The position numbers and the translations under genes are program-made. The notes beneath the pieces were generated by a model. The model was not told the DNA's origin and did not search any database. It saw nothing but the letters and a program-made list of their open reading frames with translations. Source: a virus. Taken from it: a stretch of 52,394 nt of DNA. The stretch is from positions 1-52,394 of IMG/VR virus record IMGVR_UViG_3300037189_013052; one strand, given 5' to 3'. Positions 2-49,128 of the stretch are shown piece after piece; position 1 is the stretch's first letter, and each line of letters opens with the position of its first letter.

Positions 2-700
2 CAACTGCTCACCGGCGTGCATCTGCGCCTCGATGACGACGGCCTGGAGTGCGCCGCCACCGACGGCCATCGCCTGGCGGTGCTGCGCTTGGCGAACATC
101 ACCGAACAGCCGGCGGCGACAGCCGTTGAGCCGGTGGAAGGAGAACCCTTCGCTGTGACGGTGCCGGCCCGCTCGCTGCGGGAGCTGGAGCGGCTGCTCA
201 CGGGTCGTCCCAGCAGTGAACCCCTCAACCTGTTCTGTGATCGGGGCCAGGTGGTGGTGCTCTGGGCCGATCAGGTGCTGACCAGCCGCACCCTCGATGG
301 CACCTATCCCAACTACCGCCAGCTGATCCCGGAGTCGTTCAATCGCCGCATCGTTCTCGATCGCCGTGGTTTCGTCTCCGCCCTGGAGCGGGTGGCGGTG
401 CTGGCTGATCAGCACAACAACGTGATCAAGATCAGCAGTGATCCGGCGGCCGGCAAGGTGATGATCCGTGCGGATGCTCAGGACGTGGGCAGCGGTTCCG
501 AGTCGCTGGCGGCCGAGATCAGCGGCGAAGAGATCGAGATCGCCTTCAACGTCCGCTACCTGCTCGACGGTGTCAAGGCGATGAACGCCGATCAGGTGGT
601 GCTGCAGTGCAATGCCCCCACCACCCCGGCGGTGCTGGCGCCTGTTGGGGAAGCGAACCCGCTGACGTACTTGATCATGCCAATCCAGATCCGAGGCTGA
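2..700 (+). CDS. dnaN: DNA polymerase III beta sliding clamp, 5' truncated
   Basis: The reading frame is open from the window edge and lacks its N-terminal part. About 232 residues remain, covering the second and third clamp domains of a protein normally near 370 residues. Recognisable clamp signatures are the ATDGHRLA stretch near the start, the TRxLDGTYPNYRQLIP block in the middle, and the C-terminal YLIMPIQIR, which matches the usual Y(V/L)xMPxxL ending. The clamp holds the replicative polymerase on DNA. The gene is followed three bases later by small phage-type genes and Gp157, so it is probably phage-borne rather than the host copy; this is inference from context. Confidence 0.9.
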   Translation, partial: QLLTGVHLRLDDDGLECAATDGHRLAVLRLANITEQPAATAVEPVEGEPFAVTVPARSLRELERLLTGRPSSEPLNLFCDRGQVVVLWADQVLTSRTLDGTYPNYRQLIPESFNRRIVLDRRGFVSALERVAVLADQHNNVIKISSDPAAGKVMIRADAQDVGSGSESLAAEISGEEIEIAFNVRYLLDGVKAMNADQVVLQCNAPTTPAVLAPVGEANPLTYLIMPIQIRG

Positions 701-7047: not shown

Positions 7048-7560
7048 GTGATTCTTCCTGACCATCAGATCCGTGCCTTCTGCGAAGAGGGCATGGTCAC
7101 TCCGTTTGAGCCGTCCCTGATCAATCCGGCCAGCCTGGACGTGCGGCTAGGCGGCAGCCTGCTGATCGAATCCGCCCAAGGGCCCAGAATGGTGCGCTAC
7201 CCGCTGGAGGGCCACACAGAGGGCCGGCCGTACCTGCTGCAGCCCGGACAGTTCGTGCTGGCGCAGACCGTGGAGGTGTTCCACCTGCCGCCGACCGTGG
7301 CTGCCCAGTTCATGCTCAAGAGCAGCCGGGCCCGCGAGGGGCTTGAGCACCTGATGGCCGGCTACTGCGATCCAGGCTGGAGCGGTTCGGTGCTGACCCT
7401 AGAGCTCCACAACAGCCGCCAGCTGCATCCGGTCGGCCTCTGGCCTGGCATGAAGATCGGGCAGATGGTGTTCCATCAGATGGCCGCTGCACCCGATCGC
7501 GACTACCGCGAAACCGGCCGCTACAACGGGGACGCCACCGTGATGGCCAGCAAGGGCTAG
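7048..7560 (+). CDS. dcd: dCTP deaminase (Dcd/dUTPase superfamily)
   Basis: A 170-residue protein from GTG 7048. Family motifs are present: INPASLDVRLG (25-35), KSSRAREG (91-98), AGYCDPGWSGSVLTLELHN (104-122), GMKIGQMVF and the C-terminal YRETGRYNGD. By alignment to the E. coli enzyme, Ser92, Arg96 and Glu119 correspond to the catalytic Ser111, Arg115 and Glu138. It converts dCTP to dUTP (some members to dUMP), supplying thymidylate precursors. Its stop overlaps the stop of the convergent HNH gene. Confidence 0.9.
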   Translation: MILPDHQIRAFCEEGMVTPFEPSLINPASLDVRLGGSLLIESAQGPRMVRYPLEGHTEGRPYLLQPGQFVLAQTVEVFHLPPTVAAQFMLKSSRAREGLEHLMAGYCDPGWSGSVLTLELHNSRQLHPVGLWPGMKIGQMVFHQMAAAPDRDYRETGRYNGDATVMASKG

Positions 7561-37461: not shown

Positions 37462-38307
37462 TCAACTCACCAACAGTCCCAGCTGCACCGCCGCCTGATC
37501 CAGCTCCCGCCTGCTGCGCTTCACCCGGACCTTCGGCTCTACCGGCACCGATTGCACCTCCAGCAGGGCCAGCTGCAGGATCTCCGACAGCCGGCGGCCC
37601 TGCAATAGGGCTTTCAATCGGCCGTGATACTGCAGGATCGGCCCCTGCGGGAATGCCAGCCGCCGAGGCTGGGCCCACCAGTTGAGTAGCAGGCCGCGAT
37701 CGGCAGGGTGCATGTTCTCCCATGCGTTGGCTACCAGCTGCTGCAGCGGGGCCAGCCGGTCGATCTCCAGCTCCGGCATATCGCACGCATCGGCGCCGTG
37801 CAGGTCATCGAGGCAGCTGACGCCGGTCATGGCACCCAGCATCTCGGCCAGCTCGGTGATGCTCATCCCCGCCTGCTCTGCGACCTGCTCTGCGCTCACG
37901 TCCGGGTCAGCCATGAGGCGTTGAACCTTGCCCCACTGCTCCCTCCATTTCGTGGGGAACTTGATCGTGTGGCCCTTATCCCGGAACCAGTGCAGGATCT
38001 CACCGGTGACGAATGGGCAGATCACCGTGGAGATCGCATAGGGCTTGCCATTGGCCGGGTTCACCCGCTCCGGGTCATACCGCCGGCAGCCGCGGATCAG
38101 CCCCACATAGGCGACTGCTTCCAGGTCGTCGTAGGGCTGGCCGGTCTTGCGATGGAACCGCCAAGCTGCCTGCCGGGCCAGGCCAAGGTTCGCCGCGATC
38201 AGATCCTCTGAGCCAGCCGTAGGCGCCGGGAACCCGGTCACAGTGTCAGCCATCGCCTGCGGCTCAGCGCGAGGCTTGCGGCGGCGCGTGGGGGTTGTGG
38301 TGGTCAT
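37462..38307 (-). CDS. sigma-70 family RNA polymerase sigma factor
   Basis: A 281-residue protein. Region 2 is clear: DLIAANLGLARQAAWRFHRK, DDLEAVAYVGLIRGCRRYDP and FVTGEILHWFRDKG. Region 3 follows (TIKFPTKWREQWGKVQRLMA and SAEQVAEQAGMSITELAEML), as in group 3 (SigF/SigB-like) factors. Canonical region 4 is not obvious; the last 90 residues are helical and end in a basic segment. It lies between large terminase and portal, so it would be made with the first late genes and could direct the rest. Start overlaps the terminase stop. Confidence 0.8.
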   Translation of the reverse strand: MTTTTPTRRRKPRAEPQAMADTVTGFPAPTAGSEDLIAANLGLARQAAWRFHRKTGQPYDDLEAVAYVGLIRGCRRYDPERVNPANGKPYAISTVICPFVTGEILHWFRDKGHTIKFPTKWREQWGKVQRLMADPDVSAEQVAEQAGMSITELAEMLGAMTGVSCLDDLHGADACDMPELEIDRLAPLQQLVANAWENMHPADRGLLLNWWAQPRRLAFPQGPILQYHGRLKALLQGRRLSEILQLALLEVQSVPVEPKVRVKRSRRELDQAAVQLGLLVS

Positions 38308-41283: not shown

Positions 41284-41547
41284 GTTACGGCTGTTACGCC
41301 ACTGTTACGCCGGGCGTAACGCCGGGATCCACTGCGCCCCAGCGGCTCTGCCCCCCTTGTTACGTTTGTTACACCTATAAAGGTAGAGATAGTAGTAGTA
41401 GAGCGTTTCCCCTTTCGTAACCAGGCGCATGGGTTCACATGCCTACGCGCACGTCTAGGGGGCTATGTTCCGCTGAGAAACCGTAACAACGTAACAACCC
41501 AGTCCCTGACTGCGATCTGCTGCGTTACGCCGGCCGTTACGGTTACG
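41284..41547. repeat. GTTACG iteron array, probable replication origin
   Basis: Twelve copies of GTTAC(G/A) or its complement in 264 bases. Direct: 41284, 41293, 41303, 41359, 41368, 41524, 41536, 41542. Inverted: 41315, 41416, 41482, 41490. Several are spaced 8-10 bases apart. A purine/AT-rich stretch (41374-41403) and a GCATG/CATGC dyad (41427-41442) lie inside. No convincing gene occupies 41234-41542. The array adjoins the primase-helicase gene, fitting an origin bound by an initiator. Confidence 0.7.
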
Positions 41548-44050
41548 ATCCGGCCGCTGGAATCGGCACTGAAACTGCCCGGCTGGCACCAGCGAGGCCA
41601 CGGAAGCGCATCACACCGGCCCGCTTGGCGCCTGGCAGCCTGCTGAGCACCGTCGCCCAGCTCTCGGTCCATGGCGTGCCGTCGAGGATGCGCCGAAGCC
41701 CCTTGGCGGTGTTGCTGATCAGGAGCAGGTCACCTTCGACCTTGATGCCGGTGCGGCCGAGGTGCGCTTCGGCGCTGTTGCTGCCGATCTCCATGCTGGT
41801 TGCGCTGCCGCGGGCGAGCTCCACCAGCTCCCAGGTGGTGCGCATGTAGCCGTTACCGCGATCACCTTCGACCCGTAGCTGATGCTGCAGGATGTGCTGC
41901 AGGCAGCGATCCTCATCCGGCTGCTCGGCTGCTTCGCGGTAATGGCTCCAGTCGTTGCCATCGATGAGATCAAAGGCGTCGGCTTCGGTAGCGGGTCTGG
42001 TGTTCATCAACGACCAGGCGCCAGCTAGCAGGGTGCCGTATTGATCACCTTGACGCTGGCTATCGAAGCGATCGGCAGCAGCGCGGCGGAAGATGGCGAT
42101 GCTGTCGCGGATGACAGGAATCAACGCGACTGATCGCAGCATCATGCGATGGCCGATCTCGGGCGTGATCAGTGTGGTCAGGTCTTTATCGAGATCGGTC
42201 CAGTGCGCGGCGCGTTGATCTTTCGGCAGAAATGATGGGTTACGCAGGGTGAGCTGCGCAAAGCGGCTGGAATCGGCGCCCTGCTTCAGTGCGGTGGAGA
42301 TAGAGCACAGCAGGAACATCGAGCGGATCACGAAGCGCTGCGCGGCGCCATCGGCACCACCACGACCGACGAAACCGCGACCGGAGCTGCTGGCGACGCG
42401 GGCGAGGGCCAGGATGTCTTGGATCCGTTTGCGGTCGGCCTGCTCGTTGGATTCGGCCTCATCCATGATCACGGGCAGGGCATCGGCGCGGAGCTCCTGC
42501 CGGATACTGGCTTCGCTGGTGCTGCCCTCGGGCCAGAGCGCGAGGCTATCGAGCAGGGTGCCTAGGAAGCGGCTCAACAGCGCCGACTTGCCGGAGCCGG
42601 CGCTGGCCGTGAGCCAGATGTGTGGCCGCCAGGCCAGGCTGCCGCAGATTGGCGCCAGGGCCGCCCAGCCGGCAATCAGCAGACCGGATGCGGGCACTTC
42701 CCACAGGAACCGAGAGGCGATGTCGAGGATCTCGGCACCTTGATGATCGGTGAGCGGTTCGAGGTCTTCGGGCAGGTCGATCGATACCAGCCGCTGGTAG
42801 TTGAACCGCGACGGCGGCGGCTTCATCACGCTGTGGGTGATGCCATCAACGATCAACCGATCACCGAGGTGCAGCACGGAGCGACCGTCATCCCACCAGG
42901 CGCCACGACCGCGGATGCGATCGGGCGAGAAGATGCCGGCACGGGCCTGATCCATGAACAGCGACGCCTTGGCCGAGGTCCAGTTGACGCCACCGCTCCT
43001 GCCGGCTGGATAGAGCGCTTCCCAGTAGCCGGTTACAGGGTGCAGCGCCAGCAGGTGGGTTTCGGTGTGGTTGCCGCGGCTGATTCTGGTGATCTGACCG
43101 GTGCTGCTGGGCTGGTAGTAATAGCTGCCATCATCAAAGCCGAGGCAAACGAAAGGCCGCTCCCCCACCGGCGGCATGGCAGCCGCAGGCGCATCAGGTG
43201 CAGCAGCAGGCGGCTGCGCTGGAGCTTCGATCCCCTTCGCCCGATCCAGGGCCTTAGCCGCCTTGACCGGCGACCAGCCTTCAGCGAGCGCATCGGCAAG
43301 ATCCCAACCCTCCGCCAGGGAAACCGGCGGATCCAGCACGCGCACCGTGCAGCCAAGGATGAGCAGCCGGCTGGCGAGCTTGGCCATCGCCTCACGGCCG
43401 ACGGCATCTGCATCAGGCCAGAGGGCAACGGATCGCCCCCGCAACGGCTGCCAGTCGGCTTTATCGAGTGCCTTGCAACCCGATGGCCAGGTAGCGACCG
43501 CATGTGCAGGGAACAGGGCAGCCGCAGCATCGGCGGCTTTCTCACCCTCCACCACCAGCACCTCAGCGCTGGCATCCCGCCGGGCCCAGTACAGCGGCCG
43601 TGGTGATGGCGGCGCCTTCCAGCGCCAGGCGGTGCCATCCCACCAGAGCGGGCGGATGCGCTTGCCACCGACAGGATCCGGGAACCGGCAGACGATGAAG
43701 TCGGCTGAGTACCGCCAGAAGCTCTCAGCACCAGCCGTCGGCGGTGCAGGCCGCTCGACCGCATGACCCAGGTGCCGCTCGACGGCAGCGCAGGCTTGCT
43801 TCAGGTCCCAGCCCTTGACCCGCATCAGCAGGTCAACGCCGGAGCCACCACCACCACGGCCGTCCTTACCGCCGCACTGGTTGCAGTACCAGCCGCCGGG
43901 CCCGTCGTCGTTGTCCCAGCGGTAGCGATCGGTGCCCTCGCAGGCCGGGCAAGGCTGGTGCTTATCGGTGAGCTGCTCAGCAGAAAGCCCGCCAAGCTCC
44001 ATCAGCAGCGAGGGCCAGCGCCCGGCTGCTGCATCAAGGATGGATGCCAT
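41543..44050 (-). CDS. bifunctional primase-helicase
   Basis: An 835-residue protein. Residues 34-59 are a T7/DnaG-type zinc finger (Cys34, Cys37, Cys56, Cys59). A TOPRIM-like primase core follows with VLVVEGEKAAD (Glu168/Glu170) and LWPDADAVGRE (Asp213, Asp215). After a linker there is an SF3/RecA-like ATPase with P-loop TASAGSGKS (481-489) and VIMDEAESNE as Walker B. It should prime and unwind the phage genome. Its gene ends inside the iteron array. Confidence 0.88.
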   Translation of the reverse strand: MASILDAAAGRWPSLLMELGGLSAEQLTDKHQPCPACEGTDRYRWDNDDGPGGWYCNQCGGKDGRGGGGSGVDLLMRVKGWDLKQACAAVERHLGHAVERPAPPTAGAESFWRYSADFIVCRFPDPVGGKRIRPLWWDGTAWRWKAPPSPRPLYWARRDASAEVLVVEGEKAADAAAALFPAHAVATWPSGCKALDKADWQPLRGRSVALWPDADAVGREAMAKLASRLLILGCTVRVLDPPVSLAEGWDLADALAEGWSPVKAAKALDRAKGIEAPAQPPAAAPDAPAAAMPPVGERPFVCLGFDDGSYYYQPSSTGQITRISRGNHTETHLLALHPVTGYWEALYPAGRSGGVNWTSAKASLFMDQARAGIFSPDRIRGRGAWWDDGRSVLHLGDRLIVDGITHSVMKPPPSRFNYQRLVSIDLPEDLEPLTDHQGAEILDIASRFLWEVPASGLLIAGWAALAPICGSLAWRPHIWLTASAGSGKSALLSRFLGTLLDSLALWPEGSTSEASIRQELRADALPVIMDEAESNEQADRKRIQDILALARVASSSGRGFVGRGGADGAAQRFVIRSMFLLCSISTALKQGADSSRFAQLTLRNPSFLPKDQRAAHWTDLDKDLTTLITPEIGHRMMLRSVALIPVIRDSIAIFRRAAADRFDSQRQGDQYGTLLAGAWSLMNTRPATEADAFDLIDGNDWSHYREAAEQPDEDRCLQHILQHQLRVEGDRGNGYMRTTWELVELARGSATSMEIGSNSAEAHLGRTGIKVEGDLLLISNTAKGLRRILDGTPWTESWATVLSRLPGAKRAGVMRFRGLAGASRAVSVPIPAAGS

Positions 44051-44546: not shown

Positions 44547-45467
44547 ATGCTTAGCGCACCAACGCGCAAAAAAGGCGAGCGACCCGGAAAGTCAGGGATT
44601 ACGCCATGCAAGCACTTCCTGCTCAATCGATTGCTGGGCAGGGAAATGGGCGTCCTCAGTCGCGGCATGCCTCCAGTGAAAGAGGCACTCCTGTATGACC
44701 TGACAGCCGGCGATGGCGTGCCCTATGTCTCTGTAGAGCAGGGCGAACTTTTACTCGAGGCAGCCTTTGGCGACGGCTGCTCTCCTGGGATCTTCCTGCG
44801 TCATGCGGACTGGTTGGTGCAGCGCGGCAGGCTACCTGTTCGGCTGACTGGCTGTGAAAAGCAGGTCATCACCCACTCTGAGCTTGTAAAGAACACGTCG
44901 CGATGGCTTGCGGCCAATGACTGGAAAGAGTATGCCCGAGGGGTGCATGCCAAGGGATTTGGAGAAGTGCGCTACTTACATGCCAATGCACAAGAGCTAC
45001 AGCCTCCGCTAATCAGTCGAGATGCAACCTGCTTTATCTACAACGATCCCAACCACATTGAAGATTGGAGTCTAACACCTGATTTTGTGCGTAACTGCCC
45101 AAAGTTCACCACGTCGCTTTCAACGCTTGGCTGCAATGTCGGCGGATTAAAGCGTATTGATGAGGAAAAGCGTCGTGAGTGGTTCATGCGAGTTGAAGTG
45201 CTGTGCGAGTCGCTGTTGCAGAACTGGCACGATGCCTGCCTGTTCTCTGTTGGCGGCGCTGACCAGTGGGCTTACCTGATCACGGCGCCCGCCAAATGGC
45301 GAGACGAGATCACTAGCGAGTGCCTGCAAGCGGCGCGGAAGCTGAAGAAAAAGATCACAGCGCCGCCGCAAGTGGTATGGCGCAAGCAGGATCCAGGCGC
45401 GTTTTATGAGCTGCAACGGTTCCTGTTCCTGACGCGCGATGAATTTAACCGTGGAGTGGAGCTGTGA
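44547..45467 (+). CDS. methyltransferase-fold partner of DUF5131 (TcmP-like)
   Basis: A 306-residue protein from ATG 44547; an in-frame ATG at 44454 would place the start at the predicted transcript end and add a segment that looks non-coding. LLYDLTAGDG resembles the SAM-binding motif I of Rossmann methyltransferases, and FIYNDPNH resembles motif IV. GITPCKHFLLNRLL near the start recalls three-Cys-motif partner (TcmP) proteins, which sit beside DUF5131 genes. The stop overlaps the start of the ParB-DUF5131 gene, as expected for such a pair. Assignment to TcmP itself is tentative. Confidence 0.55.
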   Translation: MLSAPTRKKGERPGKSGITPCKHFLLNRLLGREMGVLSRGMPPVKEALLYDLTAGDGVPYVSVEQGELLLEAAFGDGCSPGIFLRHADWLVQRGRLPVRLTGCEKQVITHSELVKNTSRWLAANDWKEYARGVHAKGFGEVRYLHANAQELQPPLISRDATCFIYNDPNHIEDWSLTPDFVRNCPKFTTSLSTLGCNVGGLKRIDEEKRREWFMRVEVLCESLLQNWHDACLFSVGGADQWAYLITAPAKWRDEITSECLQAARKLKKKITAPPQVVWRKQDPGAFYELQRFLFLTRDEFNRGVEL

Positions 45468-46966
45468 TGGATTGGGCTGAGATTCTCAGGCACTACGACG
45501 AGATCACCGGCATCCATCCGGCGGCTGATCTGTTTCCAATGGTCGAGGGCGATGAACTGCGCGAGCTATGCGCCGACATCAAGGAACGCGGCCTGCAGCA
45601 GCCGATCGTCATCTGGCGTGACGGCACCGTGCTTGATGGCCGCAATCGCCTAATGGCCTGCTACCGCACCAATCAGGAGGTGGTGCTTGAAACTTACGCA
45701 GGCGACGACCCGGTGCAGTTCAGCCTTAGCGCGAATCTGTACCGGCGGCACTTGAACCCTGGCCAAGTTGCGGTTGTGGCGCTGAAGGTGCGTGAGCTGC
45801 TGCAGCCGGCGGCGAGGGAGAGGCACCGAGAGGCGGTGATTGAGAGCAATAGGGCCAGGGCAAATGCTCCAGTTAGCGCCGATCGGCGCTTTATGGATCC
45901 GACTCCTCCTGCCCCAGTCCTGATTGAGCAATCGGCAAAGCAAGCGGCATCTGAGCAGCGCAAAACAACAACTCAGGCGGCAAAGATTGTTGGCGCTGCG
46001 CCGCGCAACGTGGAAAAGGCCGCCCGTGTTGAACGGTCAGCACCCGACCTTCTGCCTCAAGTGCAGGCCGGCACCATAGCCCTGGACAGGGCGTACCGGG
46101 AAGCCCAGCAACGGGAAAGGCAGCAAGCCGCTAGCCAGCCCCAGCCCGAAACTCCCAAGGTCCAGGAAGACACCACCATCACTCTGCTGGATCACAAGGG
46201 TAACCCGTTTGAGTATCCGAAGCCGAAGGGGAAGGCCACCTTCAACCAACAGAAGGGCACCGAGATTGGATGGGCCATGTGGAGCTGGAATCCGGTCACT
46301 GGCTGCAATCACGGCTGTAGCTACTGCTATGCCAGGGCCATTGCCACCAGTCGTGATATGGCCGCCTATTACCCGGCAGGATTCACTCCATTATTTCACC
46401 ACGAACGACTAGAGGCCCCATCCAACACACCAGTCCCGGCCCGCGCCGAAGCGGACCCGGCGCATGGTCGCGTGTTTGTATGCAGCATGGCCGACTTGTT
46501 TGGTGCATGGGTGCCACAGGAGTGGATTGATCAGGTGGTAGCTGCAACAGTAGCCAATCCACAGTGGGAATACCTGTACCTAACGAAGTTCCCGCAGCGT
46601 TACGACCGCTTGCAACTTCCCGCTAGCGGCTGGATTGGTGCATCTGTAGATGAGCAGCACCGAGCAGAGCCGACACTGGCCGCCATGCGCAAGGTGTCGG
46701 GAGTCAAGGTCAAGTGGCTTTCGCTGGAGCCATTGCTGGAGCCGATAAAGTTCTCCACATTAGAGGGCATTGACATGATCGTGATCGGTGCTCAATCGGA
46801 GAACATTGGACAAAACCAATCGTTTGCCCCGCCGTTCGAGTGGGTGGCCGACTTGGTGGCTACCGCTCGCCGCGATGGCTGCAAGGTCTGGCTTAAGACC
46901 AACCTGCTTGGCCAGGTCAGTGGCCAGTGGCCCGGAATGCAGATGATTCAGGAGGTGCCGATATGA
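45467..46966 (+). CDS. ParB-like domain fused to DUF5131 (Gp37/Gp68, CxxxCxxC)
   Basis: A 499-residue protein from ATG 45467 (GTG 45464 possible). Residues about 18-115 are a ParB/Srx-like unit: IHPAADLFPMVEGDELRELC, then RDGTVLDGRNRLMAC and LSANLYRRHLNPGQ. A Gln/Ala-rich linker follows. Residues about 235-499 are a phage Gp37/Gp68 domain with a radical-SAM-like Cys280-x3-Cys284-x2-Cys287 (VTGCNHGCSYCYAR), VFVCSMADLFGAWVP, WEYLYLTKFPQR and VKWLSLEPLLEP. The cysteines probably bind a 4Fe-4S cluster. The reaction is unknown. Confidence 0.8.
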   Translation: MDWAEILRHYDEITGIHPAADLFPMVEGDELRELCADIKERGLQQPIVIWRDGTVLDGRNRLMACYRTNQEVVLETYAGDDPVQFSLSANLYRRHLNPGQVAVVALKVRELLQPAARERHREAVIESNRARANAPVSADRRFMDPTPPAPVLIEQSAKQAASEQRKTTTQAAKIVGAAPRNVEKAARVERSAPDLLPQVQAGTIALDRAYREAQQRERQQAASQPQPETPKVQEDTTITLLDHKGNPFEYPKPKGKATFNQQKGTEIGWAMWSWNPVTGCNHGCSYCYARAIATSRDMAAYYPAGFTPLFHHERLEAPSNTPVPARAEADPAHGRVFVCSMADLFGAWVPQEWIDQVVAATVANPQWEYLYLTKFPQRYDRLQLPASGWIGASVDEQHRAEPTLAAMRKVSGVKVKWLSLEPLLEPIKFSTLEGIDMIVIGAQSENIGQNQSFAPPFEWVADLVATARRDGCKVWLKTNLLGQVSGQWPGMQMIQEVPI

Positions 46967-47115
46967 CCACCCGCAAAGACGCAACACGTCGGTTACTGCA
47001 GATCACGATGAAGCCTGACTTCTATGAGGCAGTGCGGGAATACTGCTCTGGGCTAGATGTGCCGATGACAATCTGGGCCAGGGAGCTGATGAAGCGGGAG
47101 CTGAACCGTGATTGA
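46963..47115 (+). CDS. 50-residue RHH-like protein
   Basis: Starts at ATG 46963 overlapping the previous stop. LLQITMKPDFYEAVREYCSG, then MTIWARELMKREL fits a ribbon-helix-helix fold. Overlaps the helicase start by eight bases. Possibly an operon regulator. Confidence 0.6.
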   Translation: MTTRKDATRRLLQITMKPDFYEAVREYCSGLDVPMTIWARELMKRELNRD

Positions 47116-48499
47116 ACTCCGCCCCTACCAAACCACCGCCGTATCCAGCATCCGCGCCGCCCTGGCCGCCGGCCACCGCAGCGTCCTATTCGTGCTGCCC
47201 ACCGGCGGCGGCAAGACGGTGATCTTCAGCCACATCGCCCAGCAGGCGGCCAGCAAAGGCAACCGGATCTGCATCCTCGTTCACCGTGTCGAGCTGCTGG
47301 AGCAGGCCAGCGCCAGCCTGCAGGCACTCGGGGTGCGGCATGGCCTGATCGCTGCCGGCCGGTCCATGGACCTATCAGCACCGGTGCAGGTCGCATCCGT
47401 GGCGACTCTGGCGCGGCGATTGCACAAGCTGAGCCCTGAGCTGTTTCAACTGCTGGTGGTGGATGAGGCGCACCACAGCAATGCCGGCACCTGGGGCAAG
47501 GTGCTGGGCCACTTCCACCGCGCTCGGGTGCTGGGGGTGACCGCTACGCCCTGCCGCTGTGATGGCCGGGGCTTAGGCGAGTGGTACAGCGAGCTGATCT
47601 TGGGCCCCACAGCCCAAGAGCTGACCGATGGCGGCCACATCGCGCCGGCACGGGTGCTGGCCCCGCCGGGGATCAACTTCCAGGGCCTGCGCAAGCGGCT
47701 GGGTGACTTCGATCTGAAGCAGGCCGCCGATCTGCTCGGCACGGGCCAGGCGATGGGCAGCCCGCTGAGCCACTACCGGCAGCATCTGGAGGGCCAGACG
47801 GCGATCGCTTTCTGCTGCTCGGTGGCACATGCCGAGGCGGTGGCCCGGCTGTTCAGTGATCACGGCATCCCGGCGGCGAGCATCGACGGCACCATGGATC
47901 CAGCCACCAGGCGCCGGCTGCTGGAGCAGCTGGGCAGCGGTGAGATCCGGGTGCTGACCAGCTGCGCCCTGATCGGCGAAGGTGTGGATGTGCCCAGCGT
48001 GGCCGGCTGCATCCTGCTCCGGCCGACCCAGAGCCTGGCGCTGCATCTGCAGATGATCGGCCGCTGCCTGCGCCCCCAGCCGGGGAAGGTCGCGGTGATC
48101 CTCGATCACGTCGGCAACACCCTGCGCCATGGCCTACCGACTGATCCTCGCGACTGGAGCCTGGAGGGCGTCAGCAAGCGTCAGCGTGAGCAGGCCCCCA
48201 GCGTCAGGGTGTGCCCGGCATGCTTTGCCGCAATGTCAAGCCGCACGCAGCAGTGCCCCGAATGCGGCCATCAGTTCGTGCCCGAGCGGCGCGAGCTGGA
48301 GCATGTAGAGGGTGAGCTGCAGGAGGTGATCGCCCGCCAGCAGCGCCGCGCTGAGCAGTCAAGCGCCCAGTCCCTTGCCGACCTGATCGCCATCGGCCAC
48401 CGCCGCGGCATGGCCAAACCGCAAGCCTGGGCCCGGCACGTCATGGCTGCCAGGGAAGCGAAGCGAGTGCGCAGTGGTCCGGTGCGGGTGGTGGCGTGA
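47108..48499 (+). CDS. superfamily 2 DEAH-type helicase with zinc ribbon
   Basis: A 463-residue protein from GTG 47108. Motif I LPTGGGKT (30-37), DEAH (119-122), TATPCR (motif III) and a RecA-like second half with GEGVDVP and MIGRCLRP (motif VI). A CPAC...CPEC zinc ribbon lies at about 369-388 and a helical basic tail follows. Similar to phage RadD/YejH-type DNA helicases. Likely role in replication, recombination or transcription-linked remodelling of phage DNA. Confidence 0.85.
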   Translation: MIELRPYQTTAVSSIRAALAAGHRSVLFVLPTGGGKTVIFSHIAQQAASKGNRICILVHRVELLEQASASLQALGVRHGLIAAGRSMDLSAPVQVASVATLARRLHKLSPELFQLLVVDEAHHSNAGTWGKVLGHFHRARVLGVTATPCRCDGRGLGEWYSELILGPTAQELTDGGHIAPARVLAPPGINFQGLRKRLGDFDLKQAADLLGTGQAMGSPLSHYRQHLEGQTAIAFCCSVAHAEAVARLFSDHGIPAASIDGTMDPATRRRLLEQLGSGEIRVLTSCALIGEGVDVPSVAGCILLRPTQSLALHLQMIGRCLRPQPGKVAVILDHVGNTLRHGLPTDPRDWSLEGVSKRQREQAPSVRVCPACFAAMSSRTQQCPECGHQFVPERRELEHVEGELQEVIARQQRRAEQSSAQSLADLIAIGHRRGMAKPQAWARHVMAAREAKRVRSGPVRVVA

Positions 48500-49128
48500 C
48501 TCTCCGCCTGCTTGACACCTTCAGCGGCATCGGCGGCTTCTCATTGGCCGCCCGCTGGCTTGGTGGCTTTGAGACCGTCCAGTTCGTTGAGCGCGACCCC
48601 TACTGCCAGCGAGTGCTGGCGAAGCATTGGCCCACCGTTCCCATTCACGATGACATCTGCACCTTCAATCCAGAGCGCGGATCAGCTGACGTTGTTGTCG
48701 GTGGATTTCCTTGCCAGGACATCTCAACAGCAGGCAAGCAAGCCGGCATCAAAGAGGGCACCCGCTCCGGCCTCTTCTATGAACTCATCCGAGTCGTTCG
48801 CTTGGTGGAACCCCGCTACATCGAGCGCCGTGCCTGGCGGAAGCTGGCCCGTGAGATGCCACGAATGCTGGGCGGGTTCAGCGCGGACAACCTCTATGCC
48901 CTGCTGGAAGACCGGGAACTGGCCGAAGAGATCGCCAGCCGCTACAGCCAGCCGATTGGCGACTGGCGGGTGCGTTGTGTCGAGATCGGCGAGGTGTTCA
49001 GCAGCTGCGGTGCGGTAGCTGCCGCCCATCACGTCACGCAAGCCTGTATCAGCCTGGCGATCCGCCAGCGGCGAGCGGTAACGGCACTGGGGCTGACGTT
49101 TGAAGCGCTGCGGATCTCGGCAAACTGA
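48496..49128 (+). CDS. truncated C5 cytosine methyltransferase fused to helical domain
   Basis: A 210-residue protein from GTG 48496. Residues 1-100 hold motif I (LLDTFSGIGGFSLAARWL), the VERDPYCQRVL motif II and the catalytic PCQ of motif IV (VVVGGFPCQDISTAGKQAG). Where motif VI (ENV) and the recognition domain should follow, the sequence switches after VRLVEPRYIE to an unrelated helical part (about 110-210) with AHHVTQACISLAIRQRRA. Full C5 enzymes need motifs VI, VIII, IX and X, so this is probably inactive, or has been reshaped for another role. The junction is in frame. Confidence 0.75.
   Translation: MTLRLLDTFSGIGGFSLAARWLGGFETVQFVERDPYCQRVLAKHWPTVPIHDDICTFNPERGSADVVVGGFPCQDISTAGKQAGIKEGTRSGLFYELIRVVRLVEPRYIERRAWRKLAREMPRMLGGFSADNLYALLEDRELAEEIASRYSQPIGDWRVRCVEIGEVFSSCGAVAAAHHVTQACISLAIRQRRAVTALGLTFEALRISAN
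49117..49128 (+). repeat. start-associated 12-mer (gene at 49144)
   Basis: TCGGCAAACTGA, 10 of 12 positions; its TGA is the stop of the methyltransferase gene, 15-18 bases before the next start. Confidence 0.4.

Follow-up and report, generated by a model that had tools for sequence, protein, structure and literature searches.

The phage genes pA and pB overlap, are inherited together, and encode two proteins with the predicted folds of SAM-dependent enzymes, and we propose that they form a DNA-targeted, two-component nucleobase-modification module that probably protects phage DNA, a tentative reading to which we give a little less than an even chance. The reading is drawn from the combination of two co-inherited SAM enzymes, one radical and one with a methyltransferase fold, with a ParB/HTH region and a place in a replication block. 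What was computed here comprises the reality of the genes, their linkage, their predicted folds, the conservation of their motifs and their context.

The window analyzed is the whole of IMG/VR virus contig IMGVR_UViG_3300037189_013052 (52,394 nt), and the locus occupies positions 44547-47115 of that contig. The gene for pA (44547..45467, plus strand, stop included; 306 aa), a class I SAM methyltransferase-fold protein that is RlmJ-like and a distant TcmP relative, starts at ATG 44547 and stops at TGA 45465-45467. One base of this stop codon is shared with the ATG (45467) of pB, giving the overlap TGATG; both the overlap and the coordinates had been given correctly in the initial annotation. 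The ParB-HTH-DUF5131 radical-SAM fusion pB (45467..46966, plus strand) has 499 aa from this ATG, and the alternative start chosen by the ORF finder is GTG 45464, from which (500 aa), and not from ATG 45467, residues of pB are numbered throughout. A small RHH-like ORF (46963..47115, plus strand, 50 aa) overlaps the pB stop by ATGA, and inside that ORF begins the gene that follows it in this series of overlapping genes, an SF2 helicase (47108..48499, plus strand; PF04851/PF00271). Of these two downstream genes, both named at the outset, the helicase is confirmed; the RHH identity of the small ORF is supported by where it lies and by its homologue at locus L003, whose RHH_1 match (E 5e-4) lies just under the cut-off, while in the profile search the copy at 46963-47115 matched no RHH model. 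On the opposite flank of the pair lies a gene for a primase-type protein (41543..44050, minus strand; phrog_35358, E 6e-138). Since the genes overlap in one run, co-expression of pA and pB is likely. Both are real, translationally coupled genes under purifying selection, with dN/dS values against four relatives of 0.05-0.15 for pA and 0.07-0.12 for pB (dS being near saturation).

The linkage of the two genes extends well beyond this phage. Relatives of pA were collected from 27 distinct sources besides the phage itself, 24 of them viral contigs and the other three actinobacterial genomes. A DUF5131 gene lies directly downstream of the pA homologue in 27/27, and it carries a ParB-type N-terminus in 26 of the 27; at L011 it is cut by the contig end, and the L058/L061 gene is split. 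At L024 (5686-6933) the pA homologue is followed by a DUF5131 protein with a non-ParB N-terminus, the targeting domain having been exchanged. The co-occurrence survey that had been suggested as a check was also run from the other side, seeded on DUF5131 alone (80 loci): a profile-detectable RlmJ/TcmP-like partner accompanies 18 of the 23 ParB-fused DUF5131 genes versus 4 of the 57 others (Fisher p 5e-10), and these profile counts are the only ones to be compared, because the eye search of the ParB-less set was confined to L131, where the partner is present. By eye, the partner was also seen in three more ParB-fused loci (L116, L127 and L136), and a further one (L132) is cut. At L133 (1990-3744) a ParB-fused DUF5131 gene has no recognizable methyltransferase-like partner upstream. 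Pairs of loci that are more alike in pA are also more alike in pB (Mantel r 0.88 between the two sets of pairwise identities, 0/2000 permutations). Within the cyanophage-like group, identity is 79-97% for DUF5131, 55-87% for ParB/HTH and 43-94% for pA; the DUF5131 core is thus conserved above both ParB/HTH and pA, a pattern to be expected if the chemistry stays the same while its targets change.

The methyltransferase-like character ascribed to pA in the initial annotation is upheld by predicted structure only. The AF2 model (pLDDT 83.7, pTM 0.85) aligns with RlmJ/DUF519 entries at Z 15.5-16.9, residues 12..282 matching 7..280, and the next families reach Z 12.1 at most. At the level of sequence, pA matched nothing in the family libraries (Pfam, NCBIfam, PHROGs, PADLOC), among PDB sequences or, by tblastn, among INPHARED phages; direct sequence/profile comparison with the single E. 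coli RlmJ sequence gave no signal, and the BFVD matches are to generic methyltransferases only. The active site of RlmJ, an rRNA m6A methyltransferase, resembles that of the DNA m6A methyltransferases; the enzyme requires Y4, H6, K18 and D164 and holds its cofactor by S100, E118, H19 and D143 (PMC3814359). By motif order and aligned ranges, and not by residue-level superposition, the equivalents in pA of RlmJ K18, H19, S100, E118 and D164 are K22, H23, S79, E104 and D167, all invariant or near-invariant among 25 homologues. K22-H23 (44610..44615, plus strand) matches K18-H19 of motif X, with K22 invariant and H23 near-invariant, and motif IV reads N166-D167-P168-N169-H170 (45042..45056, plus strand), with N166, D167 and N169 invariant in the same 25 homologues. 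pA therefore resembles RlmJ (23S rRNA m6A2030, DUF519) in its fold (Z 16), its K18/D164 dyad and its cofactor residues, but motif IV is DPPY in RlmJ, with the essential D164, and NDPNH in pA, and Y4, H6, W195 (the motif VI Trp) and the DPPY Tyr have no evident counterpart. Since the base-stacking residues (DPPY Tyr and motif VI Trp) are among those without a counterpart, together with Y4/H6, the acceptor may not be adenine, or there may be no methyl transfer at all. The altered motif IV suggests that the methyl group may go to an acceptor that is not adenine N6, or that pA may carry out another kind of alkyl transfer.

Profile comparisons place pA near TcmP, a kinship that had been anticipated. 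By hhalign, pA is joined to the ParB-linked partners of other phages (prob 99.9, E 5e-37), a link that is partly by construction because at least three intermediates were found with the pA profile. This caveat touches neither the link from these partners to TcmP (prob 98.8, E 1e-16) nor the matches to TcmP shown by the partners at L031 (E 2e-10, 41 bits) and L033 (E 5e-8, 33 bits). The direct comparison of pA with TcmP gave prob 91.1 (E 1e-6) and that of TcmP with RlmJ prob 91.9 (E 7e-7), so that the pA-RlmJ link has TcmP as well as structure behind it; controls (reversed, unrelated methyltransferase, DUF5131) stayed at or below 9%. The TcmP model TIGR04474 (cut-off 53 bits) did not match pA, and it matched the L031 and L033 partners below cut-off. 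On this profile evidence pA is related to TcmP, by way of profiles and intermediates rather than the TcmP model itself.

This kinship ties the phage genes to a pair found in cells. DUF5131 lies within 1.5 kb of TcmP in 27/28 loci sampled (cells, one phylum), and the likeness of TcmP (TIGR04474) plus DUF5131, or PDC-M41/PDC-M30, to the phage pair is that of a DUF5131 radical-SAM gene adjoining an RlmJ/TcmP-like methyltransferase-fold gene. The two types differ in that motif IV of TcmP is DP[FYC]G, whereas pA and most other ParB-linked partners have DPN; in that the phage DUF5131 is fused to ParB and an HTH and sits in phage replication modules; and in that the cellular DUF5131 partners sampled have CX6CX2C where pB has CX3CX2C. 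Both cluster spacings occur in DUF5131 (L065, L066, L105 and others), and CX3C is present in every readable DUF5131 of the phage survey. The initial annotation had called TcmP-DUF5131 a recurring phage pair. That pair is in fact mainly cellular, and the pairing in phages holds for the ParB-fused branch, which the description fits best because short stand-alone phage DUF5131 proteins were mostly without a detectable partner in the profile survey. Open-access literature yielded no paper naming “DUF5131” or “Gp37 Gp68”, which is weak evidence, and mentions TcmP in passing only. The TcmP-DUF5131 association is a widespread pair, already known as an uncharacterized association, flagged only as a defence candidate and with no characterized member in the literature searched. 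As far as databases and open-access papers show, the ParB-fused phage branch with its DPN-motif, RlmJ-fold partner appears to be undescribed.

The candidate status of the cellular pair makes prophage-borne defence the main rival, together with the co-regulation of the TcmP gene SMa2243 with the Hna phage-defence gene SMa2245 (PMC12445080). On this account the genes would be a phage version of PDC-M41/M30 that marks or attacks the DNA of competing phages during lysogeny and does not shield the DNA of its own phage, which we consider unlikely. The phage does encode an integrase, pB matches PDC-M41B (E 2e-32) and PDC-M30B (1e-31) in PADLOC, and a cellular TcmP matches PDC-M41A (E 1e-56); PDC-M30 was found in 32/100 P. 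aeruginosa strains, and 68.8% of carriers were phage-resistant (PMC10855318). However, pA falls outside all PDC models, A models included, the genes are in an overlapping run with replication and recombination genes and not among typical prophage accessory genes, and the PDC systems are candidates proposed by guilt-by-embedding, for which the literature consulted gives no validation.

The C-terminal half of pB is where the radical chemistry of the proposed modification would reside. DUF5131 (PF07505) matches residues 266-478 (E 4.8e-35, 121.7 bits against a gathering threshold of 28.9), and TIGR04471 and other SPL-like radical-SAM models match below their own cut-offs. The pB model has pLDDT 85.7 and pTM 0.56, so the orientation of its domains is uncertain; it matches the radical-SAM folds of SPL, RlmN, LIAS and viperin. 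The closest fold to the DUF5131 radical-SAM domain (residues 243-479; 46190..46900, plus strand) is that of spore photoproduct lyase, 4k9r (Z 14.2, 218 residues, rmsd 3.4), with RlmN next (Z 11.3) and no other radical-SAM fold above that value. Across 33 homologues neither the three cysteines nor the two tyrosines of the predicted [4Fe-4S]/SAM motif, C281xxxC285xY287C288Y289 (46304..46330, plus strand), vary. SPL has the motif C91xxxC95xY97C98Y99, in which both tyrosines matter for radical transfer, and acts on thymine in DNA (PMC3742179). C340 of pB, near-invariant among homologues, is a candidate for the place of the essential H-donor cysteine of SPL, C141 (Bs). By its model, pB holds a radical-SAM fold with a CxxxCxxC cluster motif, and the structure prediction and comparison proposed as a check thus found both the methyltransferase and the radical-SAM-like folds. 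The SPL-like domain suggests, on its modelled fold, radical chemistry on a pyrimidine or an adduct. Queuine lyase QueL might belong to this radical-SAM group, a possibility that plays no part in the reading given here.

The resemblance to SPL could be taken to mean that pB repairs DNA by undoing UV or alkyl damage, and that its ParB/HTH part and pA guide it to the lesion or deal with the lesion themselves. SPL is the closest solved fold, the Tyr pair flanks the cluster at the same spacing (CxxxCxYCY, as in SplB), and the likely cyanophage host (the phage being an S-LBS1 relative) is sunlit. Repair nevertheless seems quite improbable to us: SPL works without a methyltransferase partner, and close relatives occur in Streptomyces and Actinomadura. 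pB differs from SplB also in being fused to ParB/HTH and accompanied by a methyltransferase-fold protein, and comparisons at the level of sequence did not connect DUF5131 with SPL. RNA could be the substrate instead, pA methylating and pB modifying host or phage tRNA or rRNA in the manner of RlmJ and RlmN-type enzymes. The activity of RlmJ on rRNA and the rank of RlmN as second fold family for pB speak for this possibility, yet ParB and the KorB-type HTH are DNA-binding and the neighbouring genes belong to DNA replication and recombination, and we regard it as distinctly unlikely.

The N-terminal part of pB would supply the targeting. Residues 10-94 (45491..45745, plus strand) form a ParB N-terminal domain of the CTP-clamp type, which superimposes on ParB 7o0n with Z 11.1 and rmsd 1.9 A over 83 residues (24% id) and is matched by TIGR00180 (E 4e-4) and, with a family profile, by PDB ParB chains (E 3e-9); the fusion of a three-cysteine DUF5131 domain to a ParB-like domain, as first described, is therefore borne out. 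A KorB/ParB-like helix-turn-helix region follows (about residues 99-225; 45758..46138, plus strand), and KorB 8qa9 aligns to residues 10..225 (Z 10.0, 156 residues). pB resembles the CTP-binding proteins ParB, KorB and Noc in its N-domain fold, HTH and NLxR..LN motif and differs from them in that a radical-SAM enzyme replaces the C-terminus. It differs also in having GRNR for GERR: GxxR is kept in the ParB domain, and the Glu is absent (GRNR or GHTR), so the nucleotide hydrolysis allowed for in the initial annotation on the strength of the ParB family is not to be assumed. A ParB-led regulator or partition factor with degenerate catalytic domains, controlling replication or plasmid-like maintenance, would account for the ParB N-domain, the HTH and the adjoining small RHH-like gene. 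It is very improbable, as degenerate domains would not keep CxxxCxYCY in pB and the SAM-site residues in pA without change across 25-33 homologues, and the GERR Glu is missing.

The genomic context places the pair among genes that make and process DNA. The phage encodes an integrase, a terminase, a portal and a sigma-factor-like gene, its replication block is related to that of the temperate Synechococcus phage S-LBS1, and its hosts are probably freshwater cyanobacteria. The sigma-factor-like gene (37462-38307; phrog_36098) lies between the portal and terminase genes, and S-LBS1 likewise encodes a cyanobacterial RpoD-like sigma factor. The SF2 helicase at 47108-48499 is 71% identical to S-LBS1 A47. 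In S-LBS1 the primase-helicase slot is filled by a helicase, an N6/N4 DNA methylase and a small ORF (A48-A50), whereas in the phage studied here it holds pA, pB and the small RHH-like ORF, the enzymes being unrelated to those of S-LBS1. At L020 (1189-3572) an S-LBS1-type helicase and N6/N4 methylase cassette (39-41% identical) stands beside pA-pB; strict replacement of the methylase cassette by the pair is ruled out by this arrangement, which speaks for a shared functional neighbourhood. Elsewhere the neighbours of pA-pB loci include primases, helicases, DnaN, RecT, RusA, HNH nucleases and some DNA methyltransferases, and DUF5131 adjoins DNA methylases in Gordonia phage Bakery (gp63-gp64) and Dulem virus 34, which are instances and do not imply enrichment. 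In the window, the ORF at 48496-49128 is chimeric: residues 1-107 correspond to the N-terminal part of a C5 DNA methyltransferase and residues 107-206 to the C-terminal part of an S-LBS1 A46-like protein (60% identical), with a junction near 48816 that may be a deletion scar, a gene fusion or an assembly junction. A dCTP deaminase-type gene (7048-7560; phrog_1663, E 2.5e-52) may point to changes in the pyrimidine nucleotide pools.

For the nucleobase-modification reading we infer DNA as the substrate, the order of steps, the product and a protective, anti-restriction role. The ParB N-domain and HTH would bring pB to DNA, where, judging from fold and motif, a [4Fe-4S] cluster in the SPL-like domain would cleave SAM to give a 5'-deoxyadenosyl radical. 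This radical could attack a base or base adduct, either one already methylated by pA or one that pA goes on to alkylate using a second SAM, pA presumably working through an RlmJ-like site in which the Lys/Asp dyad is present and the DPPY pocket absent. In phage DNA synthesized by the neighbouring replication genes, the hypermodified base so formed would most likely act as a shield against host nucleases. Modules of this kind serve phages most often by guarding their DNA against restriction. The most specific form of the proposal, in which a ParB clamp carries the SPL-like radical-SAM enzyme to DNA, the RlmJ-like DPN-motif methyltransferase supplies a methyl or carbon unit and the base produced is new to phages, is doubtful. 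Against the modification reading stand the activity of RlmJ itself on RNA, the missing counterparts in pA of the RlmJ base-stacking residues and of Y4/H6, the presence of both cassettes at L020, the ParB-fused locus L133 with no partner, and the many phage DUF5131 proteins without a detectable partner.

The fold assignments and the ParB-fused branch give TcmP-DUF5131 a concrete chemical hypothesis. If a new DNA base is indeed made, radical-SAM chemistry would join the DNA-modification repertoire of phages, and the finding would inform the cellular pair as well.
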